NCBI GenBank assembly: GCA_008690995.1
Contig: VRMN01000002.1
Coordinates: 62,001-126,000 of the forward strand
Source: Porphyridium purpureum
Lineage: Eukaryota > Rhodophyta > Bangiophyceae > Porphyridiales > Porphyridiaceae
Direction: 5' to 3'
Length of the DNA: 64,000 bases
Shown: positions 40,472 to 64,000 of the stretch, piece by piece
How the letters are laid out: every line of letters begins with the position of its first letter
How positions within the stretch are numbered: position 1 is the stretch's first letter
Made by a program: the position numbers and the translations under genes
The notes under the pieces: model-generated
Database searches by the model: none
Told to the model about the DNA's origin: nothing
The model's input: only the letters and a program-made list of their open reading frames with translations

Positions 40472-40504
<33 letters not shown>

Positions 40505-43918: not shown

Positions 43919-44050
43919 AGCAGAGCAAGCACCACACTCGCTCGAGATACCTCCTCTGCGACTCCCTGCGAACTCTGCAGCAACATGTGGAAGGAGTACA
44001 CTAAGTGTACCTAATTAACCGTTTCCAAATCGGTTTACTGTACATCGATC

Positions 44051-44078
44051 GTTCCGGTTCCGGTTCCGGTTCAGGTTC
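44051..44078. repeat. GGTTCC hexamer repeat
   Basis: Four to five imperfect copies of the hexamer between the TBC gene and the protease pseudogene. Confidence 0.8.
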
Positions 44079-44169
44079 ACTGAACCAGATGGGCTGCCGC
44101 CATTCCCTGCAGAGGCACATCTGCTGCTGCTGATGCTGTGGTTGTTGTCCTCCGAGGTTGTCATTGGAG

Positions 44170-45428: not shown

Positions 45429-46170
45429 CACAGCGATGGCCAGGCCGAGTCGTACTTTGCGAGCAAGCGTCGACTGTGTAAAGCAGAAATCATTCAGGCT
45501 GCAATTCCAGATCGTATCTTATACTACCGGTAACGGTGGCCATCGGCACGCACCGCGCGCCGACCGCCTGCCGGCGGCGGAGGCCGGGTTGCGCCACATG
45601 TCAAATCGGACCTGGCTATGCAAATTGGGGTAACATCCAGAGCCGCACGCCCAGGCGTCCCATGAGTAAATTCACCGCGCCACCCGCGCACGTGCCGTGA
45701 TTACGCGTGTTGCGGGTGTCGTCGCGCAATCTCTGGATCATCGAGTCGCGACCATTATCATCATGAACCTCTTTAACCTCTGCAAAAGCTTCCTAAAACC
45801 CTCACCTCTCTCGCATAGTCGTCATTTGCCATTCCTTATTCCCCCCTTCCCCGCCTAAAACAAGCAAAGCAACTGGAAAACCTTGTCCCATTTTGGAACG
45901 TTGAAAGGCGGGACGGCTGGAGTGGAGAGGGGTGTGACATGATGTGGCTCTTGTGCAAATGCGCCGGTATCTATCTCTAACCCTGGAGTTGATCATGAAC
46001 GTCACGCGCTCCCGATGTACAAAGAAAAAGAGCGGAGGAGCATGACGGAGGAATAGCAGGCGCGCGCCTCGCGCTCTTCCCGTCATTCCTCTTCCAGCCA
46101 GCCCACACCACGCGCGTGCCCATTGGTTTGGTGCCGCAACTTGCCAAAGTGGGGAAACGTGCATCGTCAA
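45429..46170. other. intergenic region, no gene
   Basis: Upstream of the protease gene. GC-rich at first, then balanced. Overlapping frames of 120 codons or fewer have no domain. The protease promoter is expected at its left end. Confidence 0.4.
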
Positions 46171-47040
46171 TCAAAGATTGAGCGTTGCGCTTGGTTGGTC
46201 AGTCCGTAAGCTGTTTGTCCCGGTAGTCTTGGCTTGGTGGTTCGGGAGGTACAGCTGGATGATTAAAATAATATTGTTTTTTAAACATTGGTCGAACTGG
46301 TTCGCGCGTGTTGGAGAGAGTAAGGTGCGACCAGAACGGATAGGGGACAGTAAAATTTCTAAGAACAATTAGACACTTCATATTAAATTTTGACTTTTTA
46401 CTAGGAACATGATTTGGGGCGGGCGGGTGGTGCCGGCATGCAAGAAATTTGTTGCACAAAACGGATAGGGGACAGTCACGGGAAGCCTTATATCTCGGAA
46501 AGAAATGAAGGAAAGGAAGTGAAGAGACGTGCATCGAGCCAAACTCGTAAAGAGCTTCATTTCGATACCAAAAATCGCAATATTGACCCCTCGGATGAGA
46601 AGATATGACACTTTCAGGGCCTTTGGGAGTGGGACAAAAAGTGAGAGCCATTGTGACATACATTAGGTGCTTTATGCAATGCAATTTATTCTAGGTAGAT
46701 GCTCCCATCGTACACGTACATAGTTTCGCTTCTGCGGACGCTCCAAACCGCACAAAGGCATGAAAAATCAAGATTTATGACATCAAAAGGATTCGGCCCG
46801 TAAATAATGGCCGGCAAATTTGTGCTACACAACGCATTTACCGTGTAATTCAGATCCTAAATTCAATGGCAATCAGGACAGCAATGAGCTTAACCAGTGC
46901 GCGCAGGAGAAATCCAGCTCATGTACCAGTCTGTGTCGTTGAAACGTTATATACTGTACCTATGTAAGGTGAAAAGTGTACTTACACAAGTCGACTATGC
47001 ACGGATATAAGTTGTGTAGACATTATATTTATACCATATA
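46171..47040. other. AT-rich tract, likely remnant of a mobile element
   Basis: Base composition drops visibly (long A/T runs, e.g. around 46260-46400 and 46960-47040) against the GC-rich host DNA on the left. No protein is recognisable. A 17-bp direct repeat (AACGGATAGGGGACAGT) is at 46335-46351 and 46460-46476. The same AT-rich character resumes at 48587-48736 and 54193-54390 once the Tc1 and gypsy insertions are set aside, so the three pieces were probably one tract. Confidence 0.4.
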
Positions 47041-48584
47041 CAGTCCTGGCCAAGATGTTTGCAACACCCTCATAAAAAGTGAAATTCGTGTAAAAGTGAA
47101 GAATCTTGATAGACAAGGGCATGTTTTGAGCACGCCAATCGATCGCGCGTCCCAAGAAATACTGGGGCGCGTCCAACCGGGAGGAAAAGGCAAGGAAAGA
47201 GCGCTTGGGCAATGGAGACAGCAAAAAGGGGGTGTTGGCGAGCGGCGCAAGTTTTGGAATGTGAGAAAGAAAACACGAAGATCAAGAAGGATGAGACTTT
47301 AGTACTTGGTGTGGTGGCCGCGCGCGTCCAGTACAGCTTGAAGACGGCGAGGCATGGACTCTAAGAGTGGAACTACGTACTTTTGGGCCACGGTCGCCCA
47401 CGCCGCAAGCACGACAGCCTTAAGTTCTGCGACGCGTGCGAACTGGCGGCCTTTTCGGTAAACCACGCGCGGCAAGACGCCCCAAATGTTTTCAATTGGG
47501 TTAAGGTCCAGAGACCTTGCAGGCCACGGCAGCACAGTGACGCCGAGTGCGTCGAGCCACGCTTTGGTCGAGTTGGCCGTATGTGCCGGGGCATTGTCTT
47601 GCTGGAAAGTGTAATTGAAGTCATACATTTCCAGGCCGAACGGAAGCAAGGCTTCCAGCAAGACTTGTTGATACTTCACGGCATTCAAGCCACCCTCGAC
47701 GAAGACGGCCATTGTTAGGCCGCGCAGGGACATACCGGCCCACATGTGAACCTTGCCACCTCCAGAGTGCTGGCGCCTGGCGTACGAACTTGACTTGGCG
47801 CGACAGTCGACCCATCGCTGCGAGGAGCCGAACGGGCCATCGCAGCTCCAAATCTTCTCGTCTGAAAAGACCACTTGATGCCAGAAAGCCATTGGTTTCG
47901 CAATGAATGCGGTGGCAAACGCCAATCGCTTCCTGATGTTGTCATACGACAGCGAAGGTTTCCGCGAGACTCGCTTGTAGCGAAGAAAGCCTGCTGCTTG
48001 AAGCGTCCGACGCACTGTCCTGGCCGAGCACTGCAAGTGCAGCTCGTGAACCACCTGTCCGGACGTCAGTGCATCAACAGATACGGCGCGAATGATGCGG
48101 CGTTCCGATTTGCAACTCAAAAGCCGTTTCGGACCTGGCTTCTTGCGGACGATCCGGTGCCCCGTTGGCACAAGAAAATGACTGACAGTTGCATAGGATG
48201 GCCGCGAGCGATCTGGGCGCGTCATGAAGCCTTCGCAATTGCTCGTGCCGACAGCTCCTGGCCCGCAAGGGCGTCGATCTGCCCTTTTTCGTGTTCCGAC
48301 AGTCACGGCGCCATCGTTCGGCCGTTGCGCGCTCAATTTCGATCTGGAGACTCTCCACTTGCGCACGACGAGATGGATCAGCGAGCGAAGATCCTTTGAG
48401 CACCTTCTGATGGTCTGGGAAAAACAAAAACGCGCGCGCCGCGCCTTGGTTCATCGTCATGCTCGATGTGGACAATGTTAAAAAAGAGTTAAAAATAAGC
48501 TTTCTATTAAAATGGGCTATTTTACTATAAGATCCATTTTTTTGGACCAAAATGCAGGTGTTGCAAACATCTTGGCCAGGACTG
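47041..48584 (-). mobile_element. Tc1/mariner DNA transposon, 1544 bp
   Basis: Perfect 28-bp terminal inverted repeats beginning CAGTCCTGGCCAAGATG at both ends and flanked by the TA target duplication (47039-47040 and 48585-48586). It contains one transposase frame on the minus strand. Intact ends suggest recent or recently mobilised DNA. It inserted into the AT-rich tract. Confidence 0.95.
47299..48225 (-). CDS. Tc1-like DD34E transposase
   Basis: A cut-and-paste transposase of 308 residues from ATG 48225; the frame is open back to a GTG at 48366. The second helix-turn-helix is visible (SARTVRRTLQAAGFLRYKRV). The catalytic triad is complete: VVFSDEKIWSCDG (first Asp), FQQDNAPAHTANSTKAWL (second Asp), and SLDLNPIENIWGVL (Glu), the Asp-Glu spacing being of the DD34E type. 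A plausible first DNA-binding segment (RRAQVESLQIEIERATAERW) lies upstream in another frame (about 48360-48420), so the N-terminus may be damaged by a frameshift. The catalytic half looks intact. Confidence 0.88.
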   Translation of the reverse strand: MTRPDRSRPSYATVSHFLVPTGHRIVRKKPGPKRLLSCKSERRIIRAVSVDALTSGQVVHELHLQCSARTVRRTLQAAGFLRYKRVSRKPSLSYDNIRKRLAFATAFIAKPMAFWHQVVFSDEKIWSCDGPFGSSQRWVDCRAKSSSYARRQHSGGGKVHMWAGMSLRGLTMAVFVEGGLNAVKYQQVLLEALLPFGLEMYDFNYTFQQDNAPAHTANSTKAWLDALGVTVLPWPARSLDLNPIENIWGVLPRVVYRKGRQFARVAELKAVVLAAWATVAQKYVVPLLESMPRRLQAVLDARGHHTKY

Positions 48585-49145: not shown

Positions 49146-52100
49146 TCATTCAGAGTCAGACTCTTCGATAATTTTCAACAAGTCTGGCTCTGAATCGGAC
49201 GCTGGCAGGTCGTCGGGTACTTCTTCATCATTTTCCCCTGCCATGTAGTCTTCGCGTCCATAGTATGGCTTCAGATGCTGGATCGGAAAAACATCATGAC
49301 AAGCCACACCCTCAGGCAAAATCACTCGGTAAGCATGCGAGCTTACCTTCTCAATGACAGGCACCGGACCAAGAAACTTTGGTGCCGCCAAATCACTCTT
49401 GTTCGGCCGCAGTTGCGGCGCCGTGACCAACACTTGATCACCAACTTGAAACTCCCGGGCATCCTTGCGTCGATCGAAGAACTTCTGCATTCTCCCCTGG
49501 GCTTCGATCAAATTGTCGCGGACTTCTTCATGGACTTTGCACAGGCGAAACCAGTGCTCCGCCATGTCCTTCGTCTGTCCGTCGCGCGCAGGCGTCCACC
49601 CTTCGCTCGGTGGAAACCAAGGATCCCTTCCATATACCACTTTGAACGGCGCGAATCCAGTGGCACTGCTTGGTGCGGAGTTGTACGCAAACTCGTACAA
49701 CGGCAAGTCTCGTACCCAGCCACTATTCGTCGCCATCAACTTGAGCATTTCCCGAATCACGCGGTTCACTCGCTCAGTTTGGCCATCTGTCTGCGGGTGG
49801 TTGGCGGTAGACATAGCCAACTTCATGCCCACCCGCTTGCTCAACTGCTGCCAAAACGTTGACGTAAACAGCGGATCTCGGTCCGACACAATTGACTTGG
49901 GGTATCCGAAACGGCTCACGACGTGCTTCACGAACAAGTCAGCACAACGCTTTGCTGTCAAGTCCTTGCGCGTCGGGATAAACAGCGTCATCTTCGAATA
50001 GCGATCCACCACAGTCATGATTGCATCACAGCTGCCTTCGCTCCGAGGCAGCTCTGTCACAAAGTCCATCGAGATGTCGACCCAAGGTCCTTCTGGGATC
50101 GACAAGGGCTTCAGCTTTCCAAACGACCGATTCTCTGACTTTGTCACTTGGCATGCGTGACAAGTCTTCACAAAACGGCTCACGTCTCGCTTCATCTTTG
50201 GCCAGTAGAAGCGAGTGATCAAAGATGCATACGTCGTGTCCGCTCCACGGTGCCCTGCTGTCGGGATATCGTGGTGGAGCTGCATGACACGCTCTCTGAA
50301 CTTCCTCGGCACGCAAACGCGATTCCTCAAGTACAAGAGCCCAGCTTCGGTTCGAAAACCTTGGTGGGTCGGTAAATCTCCCATCAAAGTACCAAAGTCT
50401 GGGTCACTCGAGTAAGAACCCACGAATGCCTGGAAACCCATACCAAATTCATCACACCGAACTTGGTACTCTAGCGCGTGCAACTCCGGCTTCCTCGACA
50501 AAGCATCGGCTACCACGTTCGACTTTCCCTTCACATAGTCGATTGTGATATCAAACTCGGCCAAAAAGTCCAACCACCGTGCTTGCCGGCCATTCAGCTC
50601 CTTCTGCGTCATCAAATGTTTCAACGCCTCATGATCTGTGTGAAGCACAAACTTTGCCCCGTACAGATAAGGTCGAAACTCTCGCAGACAATGAATGACG
50701 GCCATGAGCTCTCCTTCATAGCTGCTGTACCTGGTCTCTCGGTCCAGCAGCTTCCTCGACGTAAACGCGACCGGTCTGCCTTCCTGTGCCAGCCATCCCC
50801 CCACCGCGACTTCGGAGCGGTCCGTGTACACCTCAAATGGCTTTTCAGGGTCTGGCAAGGCCAACACCGGCGCTTCCGTCAACATCCCGACAATCTTCTT
50901 GAAGGCGTTCTTGCCTTCATCTCCCAGTTCGATCAGCTGCTTCTTCGACTTTGCGTTCTGCAACAGCGAAGTCAGCGGCGCCACGACGGTAGAGTATCCT
51001 TTGACAAACCTGCGAAACCAGTTTGTCATTCCCAAAAAGGATCTCAACTCTGTCACCGTCTTTGGCACTGGCCAATCTTTCAAAGCTTCCACCTTCCGTG
51101 GATCCATCTTCACGCAACCGTTGCCGACAATGTTCCCCAGGTATTCGACTTCAGAAACGAAGAAGCTGCACTTCTTGCGCTTCAAACGATACCCCGCCTT
51201 TTGCAAGCGCGACAACACTTCCTTCAGGACCTCGCCGTGCGACTGCCGATCCTTGGTAAAGACCAAAATATCGTCCAAGTAGACAATGACGGTCTTGTCC
51301 AGCAGATCTGCAAACAGCTCGTTCATGGCCCTCTGAAAAGTTGCCGGCGCGTTGCAAAGACCAAACGGCATCACACGGAACTCGAACTGTCCGTACCTGG
51401 TCTGGAACGCGGTCTTCGGCACGTCCTCTCTCCGAACACGCAACTGGTGGTATCCCGATGCCAAATCCAACTTTGAGAAACAGTGAGCTGCGCCCAGTCG
51501 ATCCAGCAACTCATCCATGTTCGGCAACGGATACCGGTCCTTCACAGTTGCGTCGTTCAACGCCCGATAATCAACGCACATCCTCATGCTGCCGTCTTTC
51601 TTCTTCACGAACAGCACGGGTGCTCCAAACGGGCTCTGACTCGGCTGGACGAATCCTTTGTCCAGCAAGTCATCCAAAGTCTCTCGGAGGACTTTCAACT
51701 CCGCAGGGCTCAGTCGGTAGACCCTGCCCACTCTCACAGGCTTCTCATCTTTCAGCCTAATCACATGCTCCACTGTTCGGCTCTCAGGCAGCCCTCGCGG
51801 CTCCTCGAACAGATTTTCGAAATCATTGAGCATCTTCTTCACAGAGTCAGCTTCTTTGCGCTCCACTGAACAGGGCTCCTCCCTTCCTTTCAGCACGCCG
51901 AGGTAGCACTCTTCTACCTCCTGACTCTTCAACAGCCGACGGAGCTCTTTCCGCGGCACCAGCATCTGCGTCATGCTCCAGGCCCTCTTCTCTCCGTAGG
52001 CCAACATGCCAGACTGCCAATCAATCACTGGGTTCTCCCGCTTCAGCCACTCCATGCCCAAGATTGCGTCTTGTCCCGCAATCCGGCAAATGGCAAAGTT

Positions 52101-52637
52101 AGCGGTTCCTGAGTACCCATCGCTCAGTGTAAACTTGACATTGGAAACTTCTCCGGCTGTCTCCAATACAGACCCGTCTGCCAGGGTCACATGATCTCTC
52201 TTCCACGACGCCTTCTGCTTCAGGCCGTCGGATTTCAGCACAAAGTCCACGCTCATAAAGTTGTCCGTCGCGCCACTGTCAATCAAAAACGTGGCCTCTC
52301 CATCGGACTTGTGCACTTTTCCGCGAACTCGAAGAAGCATGGCAGCTCCCATCCCTCCAAGTTCCTTGATCACGGGCTGATTTGCGCTCGAGTTTCGCCC
52401 ACAAGGTGTCGGACAGCCAGACCTTGGCTTACCAAGGCCACCACAGCGGTCTCCATTGCCGCCCCTAGAGGTCTCGTAACGTCTGCGAGCCTCCTTTCCC
52501 TCTGACTGTCCGAGGAACCTCTCTACTCGAGCTCCTCGTTTTTTGACTCCAGCGAGTCTCCCTCCAGCTGCTGGATAGTCTTCCTTGCCTCGGGACACTT
52601 CCTGGCGATGTGTCCCGGCCTTCCACAATTCCAGCAT
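49146..52637 (-). CDS. pol: gypsy pol polyprotein
   Basis: 1163 residues: aspartic protease (FLIDSGATDNFMS), reverse transcriptase (MRMCVDYRALNDATVKDRYP, FSKLDLASGYHQL, and the catalytic VIVYLDDILVFT), RNase H (FEVYTDRSEVAVGGWLAQEG), and an integrase with an HHCC zinc finger (HHDIPTAGHRGADT to CHACQ) and a catalytic core (SMDFVTELP, SIVSDRDPLFTS). It ends with a short C-terminal domain (HDVFPIQHLKPYYG). It overlaps gag by about 115 bp in another frame, the frameshift arrangement common in Ty3/gypsy elements. Replication and insertion of the element. Confidence 0.93.
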   Translation of the reverse strand: MLELWKAGTHRQEVSRGKEDYPAAGGRLAGVKKRGARVERFLGQSEGKEARRRYETSRGGNGDRCGGLGKPRSGCPTPCGRNSSANQPVIKELGGMGAAMLLRVRGKVHKSDGEATFLIDSGATDNFMSVDFVLKSDGLKQKASWKRDHVTLADGSVLETAGEVSNVKFTLSDGYSGTANFAICRIAGQDAILGMEWLKRENPVIDWQSGMLAYGEKRAWSMTQMLVPRKELRRLLKSQEVEECYLGVLKGREEPCSVERKEADSVKKMLNDFENLFEEPRGLPESRTVEHVIRLKDEKPVRVGRVYRLSPAELKVLRETLDDLLDKGFVQPSQSPFGAPVLFVKKKDGSMRMCVDYRALNDATVKDRYPLPNMDELLDRLGAAHCFSKLDLASGYHQLRVRREDVPKTAFQTRYGQFEFRVMPFGLCNAPATFQRAMNELFADLLDKTVIVYLDDILVFTKDRQSHGEVLKEVLSRLQKAGYRLKRKKCSFFVSEVEYLGNIVGNGCVKMDPRKVEALKDWPVPKTVTELRSFLGMTNWFRRFVKGYSTVVAPLTSLLQNAKSKKQLIELGDEGKNAFKKIVGMLTEAPVLALPDPEKPFEVYTDRSEVAVGGWLAQEGRPVAFTSRKLLDRETRYSSYEGELMAVIHCLREFRPYLYGAKFVLHTDHEALKHLMTQKELNGRQARWLDFLAEFDITIDYVKGKSNVVADALSRKPELHALEYQVRCDEFGMGFQAFVGSYSSDPDFGTLMGDLPTHQGFRTEAGLLYLRNRVCVPRKFRERVMQLHHDIPTAGHRGADTTYASLITRFYWPKMKRDVSRFVKTCHACQVTKSENRSFGKLKPLSIPEGPWVDISMDFVTELPRSEGSCDAIMTVVDRYSKMTLFIPTRKDLTAKRCADLFVKHVVSRFGYPKSIVSDRDPLFTSTFWQQLSKRVGMKLAMSTANHPQTDGQTERVNRVIREMLKLMATNSGWVRDLPLYEFAYNSAPSSATGFAPFKVVYGRDPWFPPSEGWTPARDGQTKDMAEHWFRLCKVHEEVRDNLIEAQGRMQKFFDRRKDAREFQVGDQVLVTAPQLRPNKSDLAAPKFLGPVPVIEKVSSHAYRVILPEGVACHDVFPIQHLKPYYGREDYMAGENDEEVPDDLPASDSEPDLLKIIEESDSE

Positions 52638-54192: not shown

Positions 54193-54395
54193 ATCATTGG
54201 TTCACGGTTTATGTTTGTCAAGTATAAGCGTACATACATGACTTCTGTATTTACATAAAGGGATATATATGCGTATGGTATATAGTACATGAAAACGTCT
54301 AGTATATTTATAGTATATTGATGAAATATATACGGACCAACACGGCTTTTAGTGGATTGCTATACTATGACGTATGCACAGAGACTGCAATCGTG

Positions 54396-54629
54396 CGACA
54401 AGCACCGAAGAAAACAGACAATACGCACGACAAACACAGCGAGCAATAACGCAGTCGTACAACAAGCACCGAAGAAAACAGACAGGAAGCAGGACAAACA
54501 CAGCGAGCAAGAACGCAGTCGTACAACAAGCACCGAAGAAAACAGACAATACGCACGACAAACACAGCGAGCGAGAACACAGGCATACGACAAGCACCGA
54601 AAGAAACAGACAAGAAGCACGACAAACAT
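54396..54629. repeat. 64-bp minisatellite, about 3.7 copies
   Basis: Units start at 54396, 54460, 54524 and 54588 (partial). Each unit contains two related halves, ACAAGCACCGAAGAAAACAG and GACAAACACAGCGAGC. The unit length is not a multiple of three, so the open frame across it is incidental. The position, at the edge of the gene block and on purine-rich sequence, fits subterminal transposon repeats. Confidence 0.9.
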
Positions 54630-54781
54630 GGTACGTGAATAAAAAAATCAAAAGTCAGAGGGTTGTCCGTACGGAAATGCTCGAGCCAAGAGGACTGGTA
54701 TGGCGTTCCGAAACTGATGTGTACCAACGTACCAAACGCGTGACATGCACATTCAGAGATACTTCGAGGTACCTCTGTTCA

Positions 54782-56659
54782 TCAGTCGTCCAAAAGCCGC
54801 GCGTCGACAACAGTCGCAAGACCACTCTTGATGGTGGTTTCATTGTCGGGATCGAGCGAAAGTCGCGTACGCGAAGATAGGGATGAGTCGCTCATTTGTC
54901 CGTTCATCTCCTCCAGCGTTTTCATCAGGTCCATGTTCTTCTGTGCGGTACCGCGATCAAGCACCTGCAGCTTCATGCGAATTTGTTCAAGCTGCATGAC
55001 GACTTTCTCGTGCCCGATCGGGATTTCGCACGTCGTATTTGCGAACGCAGACCATTCAATTGGGGTATCCCAAGGCCATTCAATGGTTCTCTGTGCGGGC
55101 ATCGGTGTATCGTGTACACGAATGTATTCCTCTCCGTCGCATTCTACCTCTGCGCTTCGAGACCCGGTATCGGACTGCAACGCGCACGCTACAGTTCTTA
55201 GGATCTCCATGCAGATGATCTCGTAGCGCATCAAGCAACGGATTGCCTCACGTGACAAGCCGTACGGTGATGCCTCAGTGGCTGTGGTCGCGGCATATGC
55301 CTGCAATGGCGTTGGCGCGTGCGCTTGCAATCGTCCGTGGGTCGTACGGCTACGAGGCCAAAAAGGATTGCTTGGTTTCGAAACGCACAAAGCAAGAATT
55401 CCGTGTACAATGACTTTTACAAGCTTCTTCCTCCACTTCATCACAATTTGGTCGTGTGACGAGAACAGGCTTCGCACCTTGTGGAGTTCGAATGCCTTCG
55501 CGATTGCCGGGTACCCGAACACCTGCTTCACCATGTCCACGGCTCCACTCGTTCCGGTACCGGGATCAATCTGAAATGTGTGATGAAACATTTCATGCAT
55601 TGCGCTCCTTGCGCGGCGTACCATGATCTGCAGAACAGCGCGCAAGGTGAACCGCAATTCCCGGAGTACTCCTTTCGCCTTGTCCAAATCGCTGTGCATG
55701 TCCATGAAGTTCTCTGAACTTGAGCACAACGAGGTACCTCCAGCTTTGAGCGCACACAGCAACTCGAACGTTTCGAGCGGAGGGACCACAGAGCTGCCGC
55801 TCTCGGAACCCGCGTCCCAAGTCTTGCGTGCATTCTCGAAGTAGTATGGACTGGTACCAGAGCAGAGGGGCAAGAGTCCGGTACGGAACAAATTGCGCGT
55901 TGACATGTCGCACACCGAACCACGTGACCGACGCAGTTGGCTCGGCCTTGGTTCCATCGCATCAACATTGCCGTGCGGCTCTGTTTCTGTTCGTGTGATA
56001 TCCGCGTGTGCGCCCGATGTGTCGTGCGACGAGCCATCTTGCACATTCCTTGCACCACTCACAGCACTACGCCCAGCATTCGACAGCTCACCGTCAATAT
56101 GCGGGGTACCCCTCTGCATTAGAGCGGATTGTAAGGTCTCCGACGCAAGCGGATCGCCCGGTGCGTTACGAGCGCTTTGTGGTTCCTCTGTTGCGCGTGC
56201 GCGTTCATCCTGCGCTGCTGTATTTGTCCTCGCTGCGGTGTCCGCACTCTCGCAGCTGTCCAGCCTTGATACCAAACCCGTATTACTTTGCGGTACTGCT
56301 ACTACGTCAACTGTCTGTCGACCACCCGCAAGTCGGTTTGATCGCGACGAGCTACTTGTATTCGAGTGCGCATCATCCACCTGTGCAAGTCCGGTACCAG
56401 GATGATCTTTCGCAGTCTGTGATCCCGTTCGCTGGGCAGTACTGCATGCCAGGGCAAGCATACGCTGCCGCGTGGCCTCATACGGCTCGCTCCTCTTCTC
56501 GATCGAGACAGAGGTACTCAAAGACCCGCCGACCTCGCCTCCGGACGTGCGTGCCCTTTTTTTCCGGCCCACCGTACCCGCATCAGCCTCCGCTGCCTTC
56601 GTGGAAGGTTTGCGCGTACGCGTTTTGGAGCCGGGCGTACCCGCGTGTTCCTGTTCCAT
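54782..56659 (-). CDS. element-borne protein of unknown function, coiled-coil C-terminus
   Basis: 625 residues from ATG 56659; the frame stays open further but the upstream part looks non-coding. The N-terminal 290 residues are low-complexity (Ser, Thr, Arg, Glu, Ala) with basic clusters (GRKKRARTSGG) suitable for nuclear import. The C-terminal half is predicted helical and conserved-looking: ETFELLCALKAGGTSLCS, LRELRFTLRAVLQIMVRRAR, SHDQIVMKWRKKLVKVIVHG, then EKVVMQLEQIRMKLQVLDRG as a coiled coil. I do not recognise the family. It is divergent from the PWWP-like gene, sharing about 470 bp of promoter. It could be an accessory transposition protein. Confidence 0.6.
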   Translation of the reverse strand: MEQEHAGTPGSKTRTRKPSTKAAEADAGTVGRKKRARTSGGEVGGSLSTSVSIEKRSEPYEATRQRMLALACSTAQRTGSQTAKDHPGTGLAQVDDAHSNTSSSSRSNRLAGGRQTVDVVAVPQSNTGLVSRLDSCESADTAARTNTAAQDERARATEEPQSARNAPGDPLASETLQSALMQRGTPHIDGELSNAGRSAVSGARNVQDGSSHDTSGAHADITRTETEPHGNVDAMEPRPSQLRRSRGSVCDMSTRNLFRTGLLPLCSGTSPYYFENARKTWDAGSESGSSVVPPLETFELLCALKAGGTSLCSSSENFMDMHSDLDKAKGVLRELRFTLRAVLQIMVRRARSAMHEMFHHTFQIDPGTGTSGAVDMVKQVFGYPAIAKAFELHKVRSLFSSHDQIVMKWRKKLVKVIVHGILALCVSKPSNPFWPRSRTTHGRLQAHAPTPLQAYAATTATEASPYGLSREAIRCLMRYEIICMEILRTVACALQSDTGSRSAEVECDGEEYIRVHDTPMPAQRTIEWPWDTPIEWSAFANTTCEIPIGHEKVVMQLEQIRMKLQVLDRGTAQKNMDLMKTLEEMNGQMSDSSLSSRTRLSLDPDNETTIKSGLATVVDARLLDD

Positions 56660-57130
56660 CTGCCCGGACACCGACGCCTGCCTCCTACACCGCCCCTTTC
56701 GTCGACCAACGCGCAACACTTGTCGCTCGACTCTGCGTCGATCCTGGCCTTCGAGCCATGCGCGGCAGAGGCGTATGCCCGTCCAGGTCCCTAGATATGT
56801 AGGAAAACATTCCCTTTTGATACGAAAACATATACAATACACTCGGTTTCTTCTGTACAGCATGTATCAAAACGCACTATGTTTCATATAAAGTACGCAC
56901 GAAACCACACGTGAAACCGAAAAAGAGCCTATGTTCCTGGGAAAAAAAGGCGCGCTCAAAGCAGAAACAGGGGTGTACCCTAGGGCCCCGGTGCCCAGTG
57001 CTTCAAAATATGTAAGCTTTACGCGCACAACTTCGCGTGCGCGCGCGGAGTTGCCTGACTTTGTGTGTGCGCAGAGGTGACAGAGCTCTCGTGCGAGTCG
57101 ATTGGGGAGCTGGAGTAGTTGGGTGCAAGA
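56660..57130. other. divergent promoter region inside the element
   Basis: About 470 bp between two divergent genes, with AT-rich patches (about 56810-56890). No gene. GTAC palindromes are sparse here compared with the adjoining coding sequence (CTGTACAG at 56856 is one). Confidence 0.4.
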
Positions 57131-58174
57131 ATGGGCAGCGTTCAAGGAGCGAGAGGCGTGATCCATTCATTGCTGTACAGCGTCGTAGAGCGTCTGGATG
57201 ACTGTGCCGCACGGCTCGACAGGATGCGTGCTACGGTTGGCCGGCATTTAGAGATGCTGGGCGACTCGGACGAGACAGATCACGTACGTGCAGATGAGGA
57301 AGCACTCGCTCAACGTGAAGCACACTCACAGGTACCTGCAGAAGAAGAGTCTGAGAGAACGAGGAGCAACAGCCCTATGCGCAGGCGCAAGTTGCGAAAG
57401 GTCGGGGAAGCAGGTCGCGTACGTGTCGATGGCGGCGAGCGCATGAATCGCGTACGCGTTGAAGAAAGCGAACGTGCGAAGCGTGCAGAAAAGCGCACAC
57501 GCGTCAAAGATGGAAACAGTACGAAGCGCGTACGCGATGATGGCAAAGACCAGTCTGTGAGGCGCGCACGCGATGAAGGAGATGCCCGTCGGCTCGATGC
57601 GCTTAGGAGTGCAATCGAGGCTATAACCAGCGGTGACGCGAAGCACCTAAAAATGTACATCCCTTGCAGGACTCTGGACGTCGTGTGCAAAGCTGAACAG
57701 CAGATTTGGTGGCCTGCAAATGTGGTCGTGGACGAGCGTCAGATTCCTGCGTCTGTTAAACGATTGCGAGAGCAAATTCGCGCACGCGTAGGTGAAGAGG
57801 TTGCATTGGCTGCCGTACGGTACTATCCTGTCACCCGCAGAGAATGGGGCATTGTACGCGTCGTCCCGGAGAAGTTCATTCCTATTGAAGTTTTTAAGCA
57901 GAATGCCTTTGCTGTACAGCGATACCACATTTGGGACAGTATTCCTGCTGCGATGAGCGAAGCCTTCAGTGAAGCATTCCTGAGCACGTGCGAGGAAAGG
58001 GACGATGGATATGCTCTCGCACGAGACGTCATAAGCAGTGCGCGACTACCAGGGGCGTCTGAGGTGCGCCGCAACATTTCTGACCATGCGCATAGCCACG
58101 TGGATTTGGAACATCGTGTACACGATCTTAATACATATCATAGCCAGTTTTCTTCATCATCAAGTGAGCATTAA
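57131..58174 (+). CDS. PWWP/Tudor-like chromatin-reader candidate, element-borne
   Basis: 347 residues from ATG 57131. An N-terminal helical segment (LLYSVVERLDDCAARLDRMR) is followed by about 110 highly charged residues in an irregular repeat of Arg-Val/Asp-Glu units (RVRVEESERAKRAEKRTRVK), with nuclear-signal-like clusters. A compact domain follows (about 170-265): MYIPCRTLDVVCKAE, IWWPANVVVDERQIP, then VALAAVRYYPVTRREWGIV and PEKFIPI. An aromatic WWPA.V core after a short beta-strand is the PWWP signature; PWWP domains read methylated histone tails and bind DNA. The assignment is by motif only. The tail is Ser-rich. Confidence 0.55.
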   Translation: MGSVQGARGVIHSLLYSVVERLDDCAARLDRMRATVGRHLEMLGDSDETDHVRADEEALAQREAHSQVPAEEESERTRSNSPMRRRKLRKVGEAGRVRVDGGERMNRVRVEESERAKRAEKRTRVKDGNSTKRVRDDGKDQSVRRARDEGDARRLDALRSAIEAITSGDAKHLKMYIPCRTLDVVCKAEQQIWWPANVVVDERQIPASVKRLREQIRARVGEEVALAAVRYYPVTRREWGIVRVVPEKFIPIEVFKQNAFAVQRYHIWDSIPAAMSEAFSEAFLSTCEERDDGYALARDVISSARLPGASEVRRNISDHAHSHVDLEHRVHDLNTYHSQFSSSSSEH

Positions 58175-58278
58175 ACGGGTACCCGCGTGGGCACGTTATT
58201 GAGCCGAACATTTCATATCGCTCGGAAGTTTCAGTCATGCGCGTCGGATCTGTGGCGTCTGTGATCAGCGCGTGCGCG

Positions 58279-59175
58279 TCATTCGTCGTCTGCTGTGGAA
58301 GAGATGACAGCTTGTATAAGATCTTCTGGTTCCGAGAGAATACTTGCACTTGCTTGCGTACGCAGAGATGCTCGCAGATGTCGATGCTCAGGTGTCTGTG
58401 GGCTTGACTGTGGCGGTGTCGCAACGAAAATGGTGGGCCCTCTGTCACGGCTATCTCCACCCGGCAACCGGTCAGCTGGTACCAGACGTTGTTGGACAAC
58501 TTCGGATTGAACCAGGTGGTCAACACCGCCGTACTCTTGTAGGCATGTGTGAACAGCATACGCGTCCAACGCGAACACCGGCGGTTCTGCCCAGCGATAC
58601 TTTCTGCGGCCGTACGGCAAGGCTTGTCCACCAGTATCTTTCTCGAACAGCTTGCTGGCCGTCCACTGATGTTGAAGCTGACACCACGCCAGCCACATGC
58701 GCTCGTCCAATTCGGGTACCCGCAACGGTCCATCCTCAGGGTACAACGCGGTCTCGAAGACTGTCACCGAAAGCGCGGCACATTCTAGTGCGAGTTCCCA
58801 GAATTCAAACGCGTATACCAAACGCCTGTACTTAATGTCATCTACCGACGCGATGCTGCCTTCCCCGAATGGCTTATCATTGAGGATTCTTCCATGATAC
58901 TGGGGGTACCCCTGGTAACTGCGATTCGGAGCCTGCAAGCGCGCAATGTCGTACCCTGGTACTTTGTCCAGGATATCCTTGGAGCGCATACGCCACATCT
59001 GTCGCGCGACCGCTCTTGTACAGTCCGAGAATATCGTCCAGTCTCTCTCCGTTAAGCGAAAGAAGTCACGCACCGCTGGTATGGAATAAGCGCGTACGCG
59101 AGGCAGAAACGACCCGACCAAGCCGCGGTCCCATGCCCAATAGTGCGTGGACAACAGAGCCGGATCAACATCCAT
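58279..59175 (-). CDS. element-borne protein, paralogue of the product at 59516-60388
   Basis: 298 residues from ATG 59175 (MDVDPALLSTHYWAWDRGL). Rich in Trp, Tyr and Arg. The block ELDERMWLAWCQLQHQWT, ASKLFEKDTGGQALP and CLQEYGGVDHL...VVQQRLV aligns with KENILWYAWCMFNHAYAS, SHAFEKVDPGTREQP and FVAQADIT of the convergent-side neighbour on the plus strand, so the two are diverged copies in opposite orientation. No known domain. The C-terminus (EPEDLIQAVISSTADDE) is acidic. It is tightly convergent with the PWWP-like gene (about 100 bp apart). Confidence 0.55.
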   Translation of the reverse strand: MDVDPALLSTHYWAWDRGLVGSFLPRVRAYSIPAVRDFFRLTERDWTIFSDCTRAVARQMWRMRSKDILDKVPGYDIARLQAPNRSYQGYPQYHGRILNDKPFGEGSIASVDDIKYRRLVYAFEFWELALECAALSVTVFETALYPEDGPLRVPELDERMWLAWCQLQHQWTASKLFEKDTGGQALPYGRRKYRWAEPPVFALDAYAVHTCLQEYGGVDHLVQSEVVQQRLVPADRLPGGDSRDRGPTIFVATPPQSSPQTPEHRHLRASLRTQASASILSEPEDLIQAVISSTADDE

Positions 59176-59201
59176 TTCGTGCTCCGTCCAATTGGCGTGC
59201 G

Positions 59202-59271
59202 CCCTTTTCCCCGAAACCCCAATATCCTGCTTCCTGCCCTCTTCCCCGAAACTCCAACAACATGCTTCCAA
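59202..59271. repeat. 35-bp imperfect tandem duplication
   Basis: Two units beginning CCCTTTTCCCCGAAACCCC (59202) and CCCTCTTCCCCGAAACTCC (59237), with a fainter third start near 59271. It lies just upstream of the preceding minus-strand gene. Confidence 0.75.
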
Positions 59272-59515
59272 CCCTCCCGTTTCCAAAGCCTCGTCACATG
59301 CGCACGTACGTGTCTGCGCTTTCTGTCACACCCTCGACGGCCGCACCGATTGCTCGCAAGCATTTGAACATCGGCGACACAGACATTGGAGTTCATGCGC
59401 AGAGTATTTACATGTTCAAGCAGAGGCGAGTGCGTGAGTGAAGCATTTCGTGTACGCGAAAGGAATTGCGGTGCACAGGCTGGTACGCGTACGCGACACT
59501 TGACAATCTGACAGG

Positions 59516-60388
59516 ATGGCAGAGCGTGCGCTGGACAGCCCTAGGCGGCGGGATGTATCGGTTGGAGTCGCGCGCCGAGAGCTCATCGACCTGCTGAGCA
59601 AGCAGCGCGGTGTCGGATACGACCGGGAGCTCCAGCGGCTCGCAATGGGTGAGCCGCTCTCGTACGAGGAATAGACCGTTTTGCACCGGGTAACAGCCAT
59701 GCACTTCATCTTCAGTAGGTACAACACGATGCATGGCTCGGATCTTGCATACGCCCAAAAGCTGCAAGTTCAGTACGCTGGTTCCGGGCACCTGCGTACT
59801 CCTGAATTGGGCTGCGGCTGGCCGCACGGCAGACGAGCACGAGGCGCAGTACGCCATTATCCCGAGAAGACCTCGGCGTACTGGATTTGGTCGCTCGCAC
59901 GAGTCTGTGCACGGCGTGCCGTACGGCGAGATTTGCGTTTCCGTGGCGTCGACGTCGACGACGCAGATGCTGCGTCGAATTTCTCGAACGAGTACGACCT
60001 GGAACCAGTCGAAAAGGAGAATATCCTTTGGTACGCGTGGTGCATGTTCAATCACGCGTACGCGTCAAGTCACGCCTTTGAGAAGGTCGATCCAGGTACC
60101 AGGGAGCAGCCATTCTGTGACACACCGTTAGGCTCTCCGTTGCAATTGAGTGCGGTACCGCTTTCGTATTCAACTATGTGGATGCCGCGACTTATTGCAG
60201 ACTATGCCGTACGGCCCACAGATCCCGAATGGATTGTGCTGGTCCTCAACCGGTTCGTCGCACAGGCCGACATCACGAACGTGGTCGAGCCGCAATTGGG
60301 CGACCTGGCCAACCCAACGTACGTCCGTGAACTCCAGAAACAGCCTCTGGACCCAGGCGAAGGATCGTTGAGGCTCGTACGTGCATAG
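59516..60388 (+). pseudogene. element-borne paralogue, interrupted
   Basis: The plus-strand copy of the family at 58279-59175. One frame opens at ATG 59516 (MAERALDSPRRRDVSVGV) and, with an interruption, continues to 60388. Conserved blocks are RRELIDLLSKQRGVGYDREL (aligning with RSKDILDKVPGYDIARLQ of the paralogue), SAYWIWSLARVCARRAVRR, and ENILWYAWCMFNHAYASSHA. The uninterrupted part is 59681-60388 (235 codons). The downstream frames to 61694 may be the broken remainder of the same long gene, with about four breaks over the whole stretch. Function unknown. Confidence 0.5.
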
Positions 60389-60394
60389 CTGCGC

Positions 60395-60824
60395 ATGGAG
60401 CGTAGCCTGCAGGCGTTTCAAACGCGGGAGGCTGAGGTACCTCTGCATGGGAGCACACACGTGGTGGATCTCTTCGAGCCTCAGGGCCATGAGACGGCGA
60501 TCGGCGAGCAACAGCCAACGGAAGGATGGCCGTCTTTTCAGACGTTCCTGCCGCACGGCTACTTTGATGCTCTGGGCTTGTACAAGGGACCAGAAGACAT
60601 GCGCAACGTGCGCGGCTTCAGCGATACCGCTAATCATCCAAGTGCTCTCTTTCGGACGCGCGACAGATTCGGAGAAGAAGGCAGGATGGCGGCGACAGGT
60701 GCGTATCAGCCGAGCCTCCGCCTCGCGCACGCGCTTTCAGTCAGGAGCACAGGAACGCGTACGCGACAATACACAAGATGTCCCAGACATCGATTACGGG
60801 ACTGAGTGGGGCGAGATCCCTTGA
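60395..60824 (+). CDS. element-borne open frame, possibly part of the broken gene upstream
   Basis: Starts MERSLQAFQTREAEVPLHGS, seven bases after the preceding stop and in the same frame. It contains GWPSFQTFLPHGYFDALGLY and FGEEGRMAATGAYQPSLRL. Near 60740 the better protein-like sequence passes to another frame (RDNTQDVPDIDYGTEWGEI, ending 60824). I take it as one decayed coding segment. No domain is recognised. Confidence 0.35.
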
Positions 60825-60983
60825 AAGCGAGCCGCGGCGACTGCGGGGCCTGTCGATGCAGCACGTCGTACGACAGATGGCGAAGGGAGTCCACGCATTC
60901 CACGATTCCGAAGAGCTTCTGAGTTTGGTCATGATGACCAACGGGACCCGAAGATTCGCCGTACGGTAACTACGGGAGTTCCT

Positions 60984-61694
60984 GTGCAGGCACGCGCACA
61001 GCATATGCATGCTTTTCCTCCGCGGACGCCTGGATCCGTGCGGCGCCCAGAAAATGAGGGCGTAGTTGAGGTATCTTCCTGGGGTTACCGGGCATCCGCG
61101 CGTAGGCCGAGGCCCATGTATGATGAACGCGTGCGCGTTTCGCAGGGCACCGAACCGTTTTATCGTCATGTTTTGAGACCCGTACTATCGCCTGGGGTAC
61201 CCCCTCTGTATGGACAGGGCTCAAGGCCGTACGATGAGCCCGTCGAGTGGCCATACGAAAGATGGCCTGCACCAGTGCAGGCCCAAGACTATGCGGTGCC
61301 CTTTGCAAGCACGCGTGCACCGATGTATGCACCTGTTCGTGCACGCGCATTGCATGAAGTACCAGATGAGACTGCGCTTTGGGAAGCATTGCAGCGGCAA
61401 GAGTATGATCCGCATGCACGGACGTACGTCAGATCTCCAGGCACCTGGCATGAAGCAGGTGCTTCTTCGCACATGCCTCCTGGAGGATGGCCCCAACCCG
61501 CACGGGCGCCTGCCGCGTACGAAAGGTCTTTCGGGTACGAAAGGCCTCCTCGCTACGAGAGACCTTGGCCAGCGCAACGTGTACACGAGAATCCGGTTGG
61601 GTACGACAGTTCATCCTTTCCATTGCGCTTTCGTGTACACGATGTTCCCACCGGGTATGAAAGGCAGCATCTGCCCCCCTGCACACGGACTTGA
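60984..61694 (+). CDS. element-borne Pro/Tyr/Arg-rich low-complexity protein
   Basis: 236 codons. The frame is open upstream to about 60825 (GEGSPRIPRFRRASEFGHDD), so the true start is unclear. The sequence is dominated by Pro, Tyr, Arg and Glu with YERP-type repeats (YERSFGYERPPRYERP) and RPYDEPVEWPYERWPAP, as in disordered scaffold or RNA-binding tails. An AATAAA about 215 bp after its stop (61911) could be its polyadenylation signal. No homology recognised. Confidence 0.4.
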   Translation: MQARAQHMHAFPPRTPGSVRRPENEGVVEVSSWGYRASARRPRPMYDERVRVSQGTEPFYRHVLRPVLSPGVPPLYGQGSRPYDEPVEWPYERWPAPVQAQDYAVPFASTRAPMYAPVRARALHEVPDETALWEALQRQEYDPHARTYVRSPGTWHEAGASSHMPPGGWPQPARAPAAYERSFGYERPPRYERPWPAQRVHENPVGYDSSSFPLRFRVHDVPTGYERQHLPPCTRT

Positions 61695-61939
61695 ACCAGC
61701 CGGATAAACGCACGTGCATGACGCTTCGGGTCATTCGTTTCACGGTAGCGTCTCTGATTTACCATCGGGTCAGCCGACAGACGAACAGATGTACATCAAT
61801 CCAGAGCATGAGCCGGAAGCGTCTGACCCTGCGAGCTGGAGCTTGCACTAGTTGTGAGCTGTACAGCATGTGCTTGCTGTAGACGCTGCTCAGAGATGTT
61901 TGTTGTCGAATAAACGACGTACGTCCTTGTTTCCACACT

Positions 61940-63994
61940 TTACGCCCACAACTCTATACCATCGAATATATCGGGTCGTAGAATGAACCACCACCTAGCA
62001 GGTACCTGTTCATCAACACCTGCACGCCCAATACCACAGCGCGAAGCGCATTGAGATGAAGAAGCATACGCTTCACCTGGATCAAGAGCGGTACCGCTAT
62101 TGTAAGTATCCAGAAAGGCTGTAATCTTGCAACGGAGCTGCGACGCAAGCACAATTTTGACTTCATCGTCTTCACGTACGTGATCAAAAATGCCTCGTAA
62201 GTGTGTACATACTGTCGCGCCACCACGGCTCCGAGGCACACGCTCTACTTTCAAGTGTCGTACGATGGCGATATCCTGTACAGACGGCATACCCTGCACA
62301 GGGTCCCGTGGTAATACTCCTTTCGTCTGGATTGGATGTACATCAACGTCGATTGTCCCAATCAAGACGAGACGGGCATATCGAAGACGCTGACGTACGT
62401 CATCCCAATACTGAATAAAGTCATACCTTTCCTTGCCGTAGTAGTCCCAGTACGCAACAAAGCGCTCACTCTGCATGTTCGCATGGTTGTGCCGCACGGC
62501 GATACGAGGCGTATAGCACACCTTATACTCTTGCTCGTACGAGTTTTGCATTTCATCCGACATCCATGTGCGCCGACCCTTCTGAACGTGATGCGTAAGT
62601 GAGTCCCACACCGTGACTGCTTCTTTCATGGTCGATGTACATCCAACTGACGCTGAGACCGTGTGTGTAGTGCTTGGAAACGAAGGCATCGCCGTCACTT
62701 GAAAAGACCATTCATCTGTCGATCGCGCACGGACACAGGTCCAGGAGTAGACAATCCCTTCCGGCCACGACCCCGTGCATACCACATCTTCCGGTACTGG
62801 AGCTGCTCTAAACTCTAAAGGATGTGTCGGTTCACCGATTCCATGGTCGTGCGACATTGACGGGATGCGCTCTGCCGGATCTAAAAGTAAGCTACTGATG
62901 TCTGCAAGATCGAATCGCTCATGCTGTTCAAGCATGTATCTATGCGGTACCGCCAGATTTACGCCAGCCACTTTTCTGTGCACCCTTTTGCATATGCGCA
63001 TGAGAGACTCGCTTGTACAAGTGTCGTGTAATCGCTTGCGCCCGAACTCCTCCAGATCTTTGCACAGATGCAAGAGCGCATGAAGTTTTGGCGCATCCCA
63101 AACAATTCCCGTCAAGTACTTGAGCTGCTGTATCTTATCCATGAGACTCGATACTAGATCTCTTCCTTCACGTACGTGTGCATCTGTTGGTCGAGCAAGA
63201 GACATCTTCGCGTACACGGATAAGGCTTGACAACACGTGATAAGATACACTGCTTTCCAGGCAGGGCCCATGGTCTTGTAATATCCATCGCAGGCGACAG
63301 CCACAATGACTTGTACAAGTAGTCCTGGCGAGTACTTATTCTCCACCATCTTGGACAACTGCTCGAACGGATTTGGCGTACGTCGGATCGGAATGTATAC
63401 TCCGGAAGAACGTGATAGACGCTCACGATCTTGTACCGTGCTGATTACAACCAAGCACTTGCCCAATGCAGAGTTACGAATGCGTGTAATGTTGTCAGCC
63501 GTTCGGCGTCCACCACTTACCTTTCGGCGTTTCTTTTGTCGTGTGGTACCACCATCATCACCGTCACTCGTTTCCGAGGAGGTGATCTCGTCACTGTCAA
63601 TTTCCATATCTTGCCCGAACCCAGACGCGTCGAGTTGCGCCACGGAAGCTGTTCCGCGTATGCGTCTGTCTTGTGCGTACCGGTCCAGAATGTACAAGGC
63701 TATGTTTGCCAGTTGACGGAGTATTCCAAGCTTGAAGCCATGCATCCAGTCCACACCAACGAGTGCAAAGAGACCGCGTTTATCCCAACGATTGAGGTAC
63801 CTCGCTTTTGCACCTGGAATATGGCGTATATTATATTTTGCACGCTGCCTGGCAGCACCTCCGCCCGACTGCTCAGCTATCGCAAACATGGGCTCTTCTT
63901 CGCGGTACTCAAAGCTCGTGTACGCGTTGAATGCCTCAGATCCAGGAACAAGACATACTTGACAGGGCCGCTCCTGAGTCATACGCGAGTTCAA
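61940..63994 (-). CDS. transposase-like protein (CACTA/Plavaka type), N-terminus outside window
   Basis: At least 684 residues; no convincing start before the window edge, so it is partial. Features shared with Tnp2/Plavaka-type transposases are VGVDWMHGFKLGILRQLAN (about residue 80-98, the D.xH...G.xK block), and WDAPKLHALLHLCKDLEEFG followed by TSESLMRICKRVHRKVAG and HRYMLEQHERFDL (about 300-365, equivalent to the PKxHxLxH...FG...ExxH...ML..R region). A C-terminal RYARLVLIGTIDVD resembles the post-catalytic domain. An acidic and basic insert (SETSDGDDGG, RQKKRRKVSGGRR) looks like a nuclear signal. I assign it by motif order alone. A KDZ-type transposase is the alternative. Confidence 0.5.
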   Translation of the reverse strand: MNSRMTQERPCQVCLVPGSEAFNAYTSFEYREEEPMFAIAEQSGGGAARQRAKYNIRHIPGAKARYLNRWDKRGLFALVGVDWMHGFKLGILRQLANIALYILDRYAQDRRIRGTASVAQLDASGFGQDMEIDSDEITSSETSDGDDGGTTRQKKRRKVSGGRRTADNITRIRNSALGKCLVVISTVQDRERLSRSSGVYIPIRRTPNPFEQLSKMVENKYSPGLLVQVIVAVACDGYYKTMGPAWKAVYLITCCQALSVYAKMSLARPTDAHVREGRDLVSSLMDKIQQLKYLTGIVWDAPKLHALLHLCKDLEEFGRKRLHDTCTSESLMRICKRVHRKVAGVNLAVPHRYMLEQHERFDLADISSLLLDPAERIPSMSHDHGIGEPTHPLEFRAAPVPEDVVCTGSWPEGIVYSWTCVRARSTDEWSFQVTAMPSFPSTTHTVSASVGCTSTMKEAVTVWDSLTHHVQKGRRTWMSDEMQNSYEQEYKVCYTPRIAVRHNHANMQSERFVAYWDYYGKERYDFIQYWDDVRQRLRYARLVLIGTIDVDVHPIQTKGVLPRDPVQGMPSVQDIAIVRHLKVERVPRSRGGATVCTHLRGIFDHVREDDEVKIVLASQLRCKITAFLDTYNSGTALDPGEAYASSSQCASRCGIGRAGVDEQVPARWWFILRPDIFDGIELWA

Positions 63995-64000
63995 CGTAAC

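Follow-up and report, generated by a model that had tools for sequence, protein, structure and literature searches.

An array of palindromic sites with nearly free arms in a large mobile element of Porphyridium purpureum: what looks like a self-recognition code

The element and its genes

The window, a stretch of 64,000 nucleotides of a Porphyridium purpureum contig (here C1), ends in an island of GTAC-centred palindromes. This island is a piece of a large multi-gene mobile element that holds an array of sites in its interior; judged by sequence comparison, it is one copy of an element of about 11.8 kb. Positions 116387-128039 of C1 match positions 264474-276129 of contig C11 at 99.3% over 11,656 bp (BLAST), and positions 116193-116628 match C11 263961-264396 at 93.3%. 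The ends are taken from the flanks of these two copies: what the two have in common ends with ...CTGA at C1 128033, the BLAST match running 6 bases further. The element thus occupies 54193..64000 of the window and extends 2.0 kb past its end; the array runs on beyond it too. A preliminary description of this DNA had placed the start of the island at 54.66 kb: the first site does lie at 54666, but the element begins slightly earlier, near 54193. Besides the copy on C11, divergent copies are present elsewhere in the genome. Those on C30 and C3 are about 95% alike in the gene compared, so that the copies within each pair, C1/C11 and C30/C3, are not independent.

Near the left end lie 64-bp tandem repeats in 3.8 copies (54387..54628). 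They are followed by genes A to E, whose limits are those of open frames, not of transcripts. Gene A (54782..56863, minus strand) encodes 693 amino acids of unassigned function and has relatives in C11, C3 and C30, those in C3 and C30 at 57-60%. Gene B (57119..58174, plus strand) is a frame of 351 codons with a weak PWWP-like domain, below threshold (PF00855, E 0.012), at residues 188-243, or 57680..57847 on the plus strand. Gene C (58279..59286, minus strand) has 335 amino acids and no assigned function. The region of gene D (59390..61860, plus strand, limits approximate) holds a frame of 721 codons that is intact in the C3 copy and interrupted by stops in C1 and C11. Gene E, a frame of 1,099 codons on the minus strand, fills 61940..64000 and continues to C1 127239; its N-terminus, past the window end, carries a C2HC-like finger. 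A Pfam scan of A-E gives no family above cut-off. Protein searches with three queries (the E protein, an alignment of E proteins, and the A protein), scoring for each about 8,000 candidates that share most words, return P. purpureum entries only, and 16 pattern matches in viral contigs include no relative.

Gene E is, by its motif pattern alone, a probable transposase. Its conserved blocks (CxxC; D..HG; H, then a TT...E...K block) resemble those of Plavaka/KDZ-type transposases. There are differences too: a genome-wide search with Pfam Plavaka PF18759 at E <= 10 gives 0 matches, and the ends of C1 and C11 have no terminal inverted repeat, nor any 10-bp inverted match. The E protein of C1 has no Pfam family at E <= 1, its relatives have only two chance-level matches, and PDB sequences yield none; a Mutator-like transposase, a trait of VANDAL elements, is likewise not seen in E of C1 at that threshold. 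Helitrons have consensus ends 5' TC and 3' CTRR without inverted repeats. Here the ends read (A)TCATTGG and CTGA, a Helitron-like reading that may be chance, and A-E have no Pfam match to a Helitron Rep/helicase.

A site defined by complementarity

Between 54660 and 64000 there are 118 occurrences of GTAC, against 35.7 expected from base composition and 99.5 from a second-order Markov estimate. The palindromes centred on them measure 4, 6, 8, 10, 12 and 14 bp in 38, 13, 8, 49, 9 and 1 cases: 67 reach at least 8 bp (7.5 expected), and 59 at least 10 bp (1.9 expected). The preliminary description had counted about 114 GTAC and about 64 palindromes of 8-14 bp, close to these figures. Its threefold excess of GTAC holds against base composition and shrinks against the Markov estimate; since the count is near the latter, the striking part is the symmetric extension, not the number of words. 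For each of the 15 remaining self-complementary 4-mers, the island has 2 occurrences with 3-bp arms at most.

The signal is confined to the island within the window. The other 54,659 bases have 207 GTAC, with arms of at least 2 bases in 12 (13.5 expected) and of at least 3 bases in 3 (3.4 expected). When six genes are shuffled 300 times each with their codons preserved, a gene holds on average 0.4-1.2 GTAC palindromes and never more than 6, for 6-18 observed. Chance and composition are ruled out by these shuffles together with the 59 palindromes against 1.9, and the two explanations that the preliminary description had set against its own reading, the same signal in ordinary host genes and codon usage, both fail, the first as judged from the rest of the window. 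The selection on dyad symmetry that it proposed is supported by the same controls. It had also linked the signal to the element and suggested looking at other copies: these carry the same signal.

CA and TG serve as centres too. From 54193 on, 24 of the 150 GCAC/GTGC words are perfect sites, 2.4 being expected; the other 54,192 bases of the window hold 15. The array in the window thus runs over 54666..63803 and comprises 83 sites with complementary 3-bp arms, 59 with a GTAC core and 24 with a GCAC or GTGC core. The 10-bp site consists of three arm bases, G-[TA, CA or TG]-C, and three arm bases.

This length is well defined. As had been described, 10 bp is the usual size (exactly so in 49 of the 59 GTAC palindromes of at least 10 bp), and in two copies a match between the next two bases outward is rarer than chance, with 15/91 and 16/104 sites where 22.9 and 26.2 are expected. 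The same two copies use 27 and 29 different arms: the sequence is nearly free and the complementarity is kept, which rules out one dispersed word and agrees with the earlier view of varied self-complementary flanks, distinct from a HIP1-like word. The outer pair is C or G in 88/91 and 101/104 sites. The strength of arm pairs counts; their letters do not.

The sites stand about one per 100 bp, with median spacings of 88-100 bp. In three elements the spacing is more even than chance, none of 5,000 random placements being as even, and in C1 a single spacing of 90 is below 20 bp, for 13.3 expected. Most sites lie within genes; some, in small numbers, lie in short intergenic gaps, including the divergent gaps A/B and C/D. 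The right end of the element is different: in C1 its 800 bp contain 18 GTAC, none of them armed, and the 1,043 bp of C3 contain 2 armed sites.

Conservation between copies

Of the 91 sites of C1, 84 have a gap-free alignment with the divergent copy C3 and enter the comparison; pair counts restricted to aligned sites with at least 5 of 10 letters in common do not. Among the 84, 30 are identical over all 10 bases, against 362 of 9,067 background 10-mers; arm pairs are unchanged in 202 of 252 cases (background 3,110/7,025), and altered pairs are still complementary in 13 of 50 (background 351/3,915). The site TCCGTACGGA at 54666..54675 (C1 116669) is the same in C3, and the site GATGTACATC at 61788..61797 (C1 123791) reads GACGTACGTC there, both arms having been altered together. 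Among 63 GTAC sites of C1, 25 correspond to a GTAC site in C3, 24 of them identical over 10 bases, and 18 to a GCAC/GTGC site with complementary arms, 14 of which differ at the centre only. Unarmed GTAC are also kept, in 26/81 cases vs 29/59 for armed ones (p = 0.054).

The sites are kept by purifying selection. Between the near-identical C1 and C11, no recent protection is measurable: 3 of 62 substitutions fall in site columns (910 of 11,301), where about 5 are expected.

Related families with other words

A distant sister element, read up to C8 809000, has the same design with an ATAT core (A-TA-T). Its E protein is 30-34% identical, and it encodes a PWWP domain that passes the Pfam cut-off; apart from E and this domain, its genes have no detectable similarity to A-D. 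An exact mirror order of genes between the two types of element was considered and fails, the correspondence being limited to E and the PWWP domain. Two further families carry other dispersed words, GGANTCC, whose spacing is not significantly even, and ATCCG. The E-families L032, L035, L037 and L039-L042 have no such word.

Possible readings of the array

That the array is a selected, family-specific recognition array is, taken alone, almost certain. The further step, that it serves the element for self-recognition in a role like that of VANC, is the reading that we favour; it is drawn by analogy and proposed tentatively, the joint claim falling short of an even chance. An element-encoded factor, for which the candidates are the PWWP-like B, or A, C or D, would bind or mark the element at the sites and so preserve its transcription or transposition in the face of silencing by the host, the part that VANC proteins play, through family-specific motifs, in Arabidopsis VANDAL elements; a separate core for each family would confine each factor to its own element. 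The large red-algal element and its distant relative with another core look like carriers of an undescribed self-recognition code. In its explicit form, which we find conceivable at a little less than even probability, the reader would check the mutual complementarity of the arms, not their letters, at sites tiled every 100 bp or so through coding DNA, and the core (GTAC, then ATAT) would be a tag of family identity. Base pairing seems required for reading free arms: because arms are judged by complementarity, the reader most likely sees a base-paired, mini-hairpin state.

Such a state could arise during transcription. The non-template strand, exposed over about 10 nt in the bubble, would fold into a mini-hairpin with a TA or CA loop and be read by an elongation or counter-silencing factor; this special form of the self-recognition reading, with a defined reader state, we hold to be unlikely. 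The 10-bp length, the G:C clamp and the free but complementary arms fit it. So does the excess, in gene sense, of GCAC sites (55 of 178 words) over GTGC sites (18 of 149; p = 5e-5), seen in C1 alone (p = 0.015) and in C3 alone (p = 0.002), the words numbering 178 or 179 and 149 or 150 depending on gene limits; fourfold sites show no general sense T-to-C bias that might lie behind it. There is a precedent in RfaH:ops, described in PMC5995543 as a tiny non-template DNA hairpin read in a bubble of 10-11 nt. However, a stem of 4 bp with a loop of 2 nt is very weak by itself, sites are also present, in small numbers, in the gaps between genes, the ATAT element has no strand bias (4 ACAT vs 5 ATGT), nor have GAAC and GTTC (7/73 and 8/78), the ATCCG word of another family is unpaired and found on both strands (22 and 20), and no NusG/Spt5-like Pfam match occurs in the element proteins scanned. 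Hairpins in the mRNA, which a protein of the element would bind to promote export, packaging or stability, share the free complementary arms and the GCAC sense bias in their favour and are very improbable. Single mismatches at GCAC-core sites do lean their way, with 10 G.T vs 1 A.C, but GTAC cores have 12 of each kind, few G.U-type pairs occur in the whole set, both strands carry genes, and the words of other families are unpaired or strand-symmetric; on the mismatch counts plain RNA hairpins are disfavoured.

An architectural array, bound along the element to compact it or exclude nucleosomes and with no role in identity, fits the even spacing with few short gaps and the presence of sites in genes and gaps alike; it leaves unexplained the family-specific switch of core and the nearly unarmed right end, rich in GTAC, and is rather improbable. 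We consider improbable that the sites are marks set by an element or host methyltransferase, the array protecting or labelling the element: TA-centred dyads, even coverage and words that differ between families like enzyme specificities all suggest it, but this leaves the free yet complementary arms without an explanation, the centre can also be CA or TG, and Pfam scans and a motif search of the element proteins reveal no methyltransferase, although one that is remote in sequence or encoded by the host may exist. The GTAC-specific restriction or modification system of the preliminary description is unsupported, because GCAC and GTGC serve as well, the sister uses ATAT and no methyltransferase is seen in the genes scanned; the dimeric protein that it also proposed fails in its plain form, a dimer reading one sequence, to explain 27-29 arms each matching its partner. 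A mutational process, which it also mentioned, could take the form of breaks at GTAC whose repair by short fold-back copying would write and renew palindromes in the absence of selection. Templated correction would indeed produce paired arm changes, but the arms are conserved between copies instead of drifting together, perfect arms are kept at GCAC and GTGC sites, the spacing is even, extension past 10 bp is avoided, and GTAC at the right end are unarmed: palindrome-writing by mutation is scarcely credible. The earlier interpretation as a whole is partly supported.

If the self-recognition reading is true, arms without fixed letters hinder protein coding little, so that the whole element can carry tags inside its genes; if they are read by pairing, they would form a dense, element-specific address in coding DNA. 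The array would then show how a mobile element is recognised over its whole length and how families are kept apart, and would do so in red algae, a lineage with little known about the silencing of elements. Since no single long word repeats, such arrays can escape ordinary motif finders; a simple scan of centre word times arm complementarity detects them.

Comparison with known systems

In open-licence papers we found no description of such arrays, and no statement that DNA methylation serves to silence elements in P. purpureum; the main text of the P. purpureum genome paper does not contain 'transpos', 'palindrom' or 'methyl'. The HIP1 word of cyanobacteria is one fixed octamer found genome-wide: both are highly iterated short palindromes, but here the arms are many and restricted to one type of element. 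If its sites are read as mini-hairpins, the array would resemble RfaH/ops, where a tiny DNA hairpin is recognised in part by its pairing, within about 10 nt. RfaH/ops is bacterial, with one or few fixed-sequence sites per operon, and the element proteins scanned have no NusG/Spt5-like domain match.

The comparison that the favoured reading draws on is with VANDAL elements, whose family-specific motifs are bound by element-encoded anti-silencing proteins. According to PMC5735166 and PMC10398659, the motif is YAGTATTAY for VANC21 and AGTTGTCC/AGTTGTAC for VANC6, varies between related families, and sits in tandem repeats of non-coding regions. Both are multi-gene DNA elements with a short motif present many times over and different among related families, as in the GTAC and ATAT arrays and the GGANTCC and ATCCG words, several families having none. 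VANC motifs are fixed words in non-coding tandem repeats; the sites of Porphyridium, in contrast, have free complementary arms, are evenly spaced, and lie mostly within genes.

GTAC palindromes in the island

In the region 54660-64000, GTAC occurs 118 times. The threefold excess given in the preliminary description stands against base composition, which predicts 35.7 occurrences, but not against a second-order estimate, which predicts 99.5. The palindromes themselves are amply confirmed: 59 of the 118 GTAC are centres of palindromes of at least 10 bp, with 1.9 expected, and each of the 15 other palindromic 4-mers has at most two comparable ones in the same region. Permuting the synonymous codons within each of six genes, with 300 shuffles per gene, yields a mean of 0.4-1.2 GTAC palindromes per gene and a maximum of 6, while the real genes contain 6-18: codon usage, a possible explanation raised at the outset, is insufficient. 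Nor does the rest of the window carry the same signal, the symmetric extension of GTAC being at chance level across its remaining 54,659 bases. In six 8-kb host stretches, simple repeats are raised and no palindromic word of this kind was found; two of these stretches, at window 32000-48000, have an excess of GTACA (29 vs 7.0 and 26 vs 8.7 expected) in which palindromic arms are absent.

The element and its copies

The window covers positions 62001-126000 of contig C1. The island belongs to a mobile element that extends from about 116193 (window 54193) to about 128033 on this contig, with gene order A(-) B(+) C(-) D(+) E(-). The assembly comprises 22.16 Mb in 46 contigs; the published assembly of strain CCMP1328 has 22.1 Mbp in 52 contigs, and repeats make up 14% of it, with 'unknown' ones having accumulated (PMC6811547).

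A close copy on contig C11 (264474-276129) is 99.3% identical to C1 116387-128039 over 11,656 bp. Contig C3 holds a divergent copy, with 68-76% identity in matching stretches; contig C20 has a split, C3-like copy, and contig C30 a C3-like piece. The C20 copy (60931-73071, loci L014 and L015) is interrupted within gene D by a stretch of about 7 kb, flanked by two direct repeats of about 1.06 kb each, 98.7% identical, and is probably the site of an LTR retrotransposon insertion. Gene D keeps an open frame in C3; in C1 and C11 its frame is interrupted.

Searches with the element proteins match P. purpureum entries named 'hypothetical protein', plus the window's own entry. Gene E has 26 matches across the genome which, beyond close copies, form families at 25-34% identity. 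We take E to be a probable transposase from its motif pattern; sequence tests against known families (Pfam, Plavaka, PDB sequences) were all negative. The element ends, at C1 116193 and about 128033, read (A)TCATTGG and CTGA, and no inverted match of at least 10 bp was found between them. Helitrons terminate in TC and CTRR, a pattern that these ends fit, though this may be chance; no Rep/helicase domain was matched among the element proteins scanned. The direct left neighbour is itself a repeat (C1 116001-116195, 90.8% identical to C3 186206-186400), and a few kb to the left, at window 49146-52637 (-), lies a Ty3/gypsy-type retrotransposon polyprotein with protease, reverse transcriptase, RNase H and integrase.

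Site grammar and spacing

Among 4-mers having complementary outer bases, three stand out as cores between 3-bp complementary arms: G-TA-C, G-CA-C and G-TG-C. Such armed sites number 63, 13 and 15, respectively, in C1, and 54, 23 and 28 in C3, with 1.3-2.1 expected for each; enrichment is weak for GAAC (7 in C1, 4 in C3) and GTTC (4 in C3). Of the three arm pairs, the outermost consists of C and G at 88 of 91 sites in C1 and 101 of 104 in C3, the middle one is unconstrained, and the inner one avoids A. That the flanks vary while remaining self-complementary, rather than repeating a single dispersed word, is borne out by the 27 (C1) and 29 (C3) distinct arms in use, of 64 possible. Complementarity one step beyond the arms is below chance (15/91 vs 22.9 expected in C1, 16/104 vs 26.2 in C3), and the site length is therefore fixed at 10 bp.

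Armed sites occur within genes and in intergenic gaps, in every codon phase, and are evenly spaced: the coefficient of variation is 0.66 in C1 (n=91), 0.51 in C3 (n=105) and 0.63 in a sister element with core ATAT (n=71), against 0.97-0.98 at random, and none of 5,000 random placements was as even in any of the three. Median spacings are 99.5, 87.5 and 100 bp. The GTAC-rich right end has no armed site in 800 bp with 18 GTAC in C1, and two in 1,043 bp with 12 GTAC in C3. In C1 this end (127440-128000, locus L006 1440-2000) is AT-rich, its roughly 18 GTAC lacking complementary arms and often having AT directly after them; these are perhaps binding sites of the same or another factor.

Selection on pairing

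Flank identity between C1 and C3 is 0.44-0.88 at C1 sites. Comparing the two at the 84 of 91 C1 sites that align without gaps, we find all 10 bases unchanged at 30 of 84 sites, against 362 of 9,067 background 10-mers, and fully complementary arms in C3 at 59. Only 50 of 252 arm pairs are altered, against 3,915 of 7,025 background complementary pairs at equal distances, and 13 of the 50 remain complementary (background 351 of 3,915). At some sites both arms have changed together, as in GATGTACATC/GACGTACGTC, which shows their letters to be free and their pairing not. Against selection, it must be noted that unarmed GTAC are also kept fairly often, at 26 of 81 compared with 29 of 59 armed cores (p = 0.054). 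Between the recent copies C1 and C11, the sites are not significantly protected: 3 of 62 substitutions fall within site columns, which make up 910 of 11,301.

In gene sense, GCAC is armed more often than GTGC (55/178 and 18/149, p = 5e-5), and the same holds for C1 (19/82 vs 6/74), C3 (36/97 vs 12/76) and C30 (10/24 vs 2/18) considered singly. Single arm mismatches of types G.T and A.C number 12 and 12 at GTAC sites, 10 and 1 at GCAC, and 5 and 6 at GTGC. A general T-to-C bias in gene sense is absent from fourfold sites (C/T 0.211/0.236, G/A 0.302/0.252), and no strand bias appears between GAAC and GTTC or in the ATAT element (4 vs 5). The asymmetry is real and may favour a transcription-linked reader.

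Other families

The sister element lies on contig C8, and the pieces of its E-like frame that match are 30-34% identical. It repeats the site design around an ATAT core: among 95 ATAT in 8.2 kb, the arms measure at least 2 in 61 cases (6.0 expected) and at least 3 in 37 (1.5 expected). It also uses ATGT and ACAT cores, and its outer pair is not confined to G:C. A related copy at C1 1054-1061 kb (97.4%) likewise has the ATAT design. In one gene of the C8 element a PWWP domain scores 29.6 bits, where the Pfam cut-off is 25.6; PWWP domains are chromatin readers. The other genes of this element have no detectable similarity to A-D.

Words were compared across families at the examined loci, a part of the genome. 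GGANTCC is dispersed in one E-family (L024, L034), at 22 places in 3,552 bp, and ATCCG in another (L026, L038), with 42 and 44 occurrences in two copies, about 10 expected, and a strand split of 22 and 20. In L026 the ATCCG occurrences are more regular in their spacing than chance predicts (P 0.0016); for GGANTCC evenness is not significant (0.26). These are possibly the families' own recognition words. At L032, L035, L037 and L039-L042, no word clearly exceeds host controls. The top words of L030, L031 and L044 are part of 12-bp tandem repeats (CGAAAAACTGCC and variants), which sit just past the E frame.

Comparison with known systems

Evenly spaced sites of fixed grammar, under selection for pairing and with a core that switches between families, suggest a self-recognition array, in which an element-encoded factor would read the armed sites in base-paired stem form and might thereby counter silencing of the element. 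By analogy, the nearest system would be VANDAL/VANC, where an element-encoded anti-silencing protein binds family-specific motifs (PMC5735166, PMC10398659). Family-specific recognition words are common to both; what appears to be new in P. purpureum is that arms would be judged by mutual complementarity. For the reading of pairing within a very small DNA stem, a precedent is RfaH at ops, where the stem lies in the non-template strand of a 10-11 nt bubble (PMC5995543).
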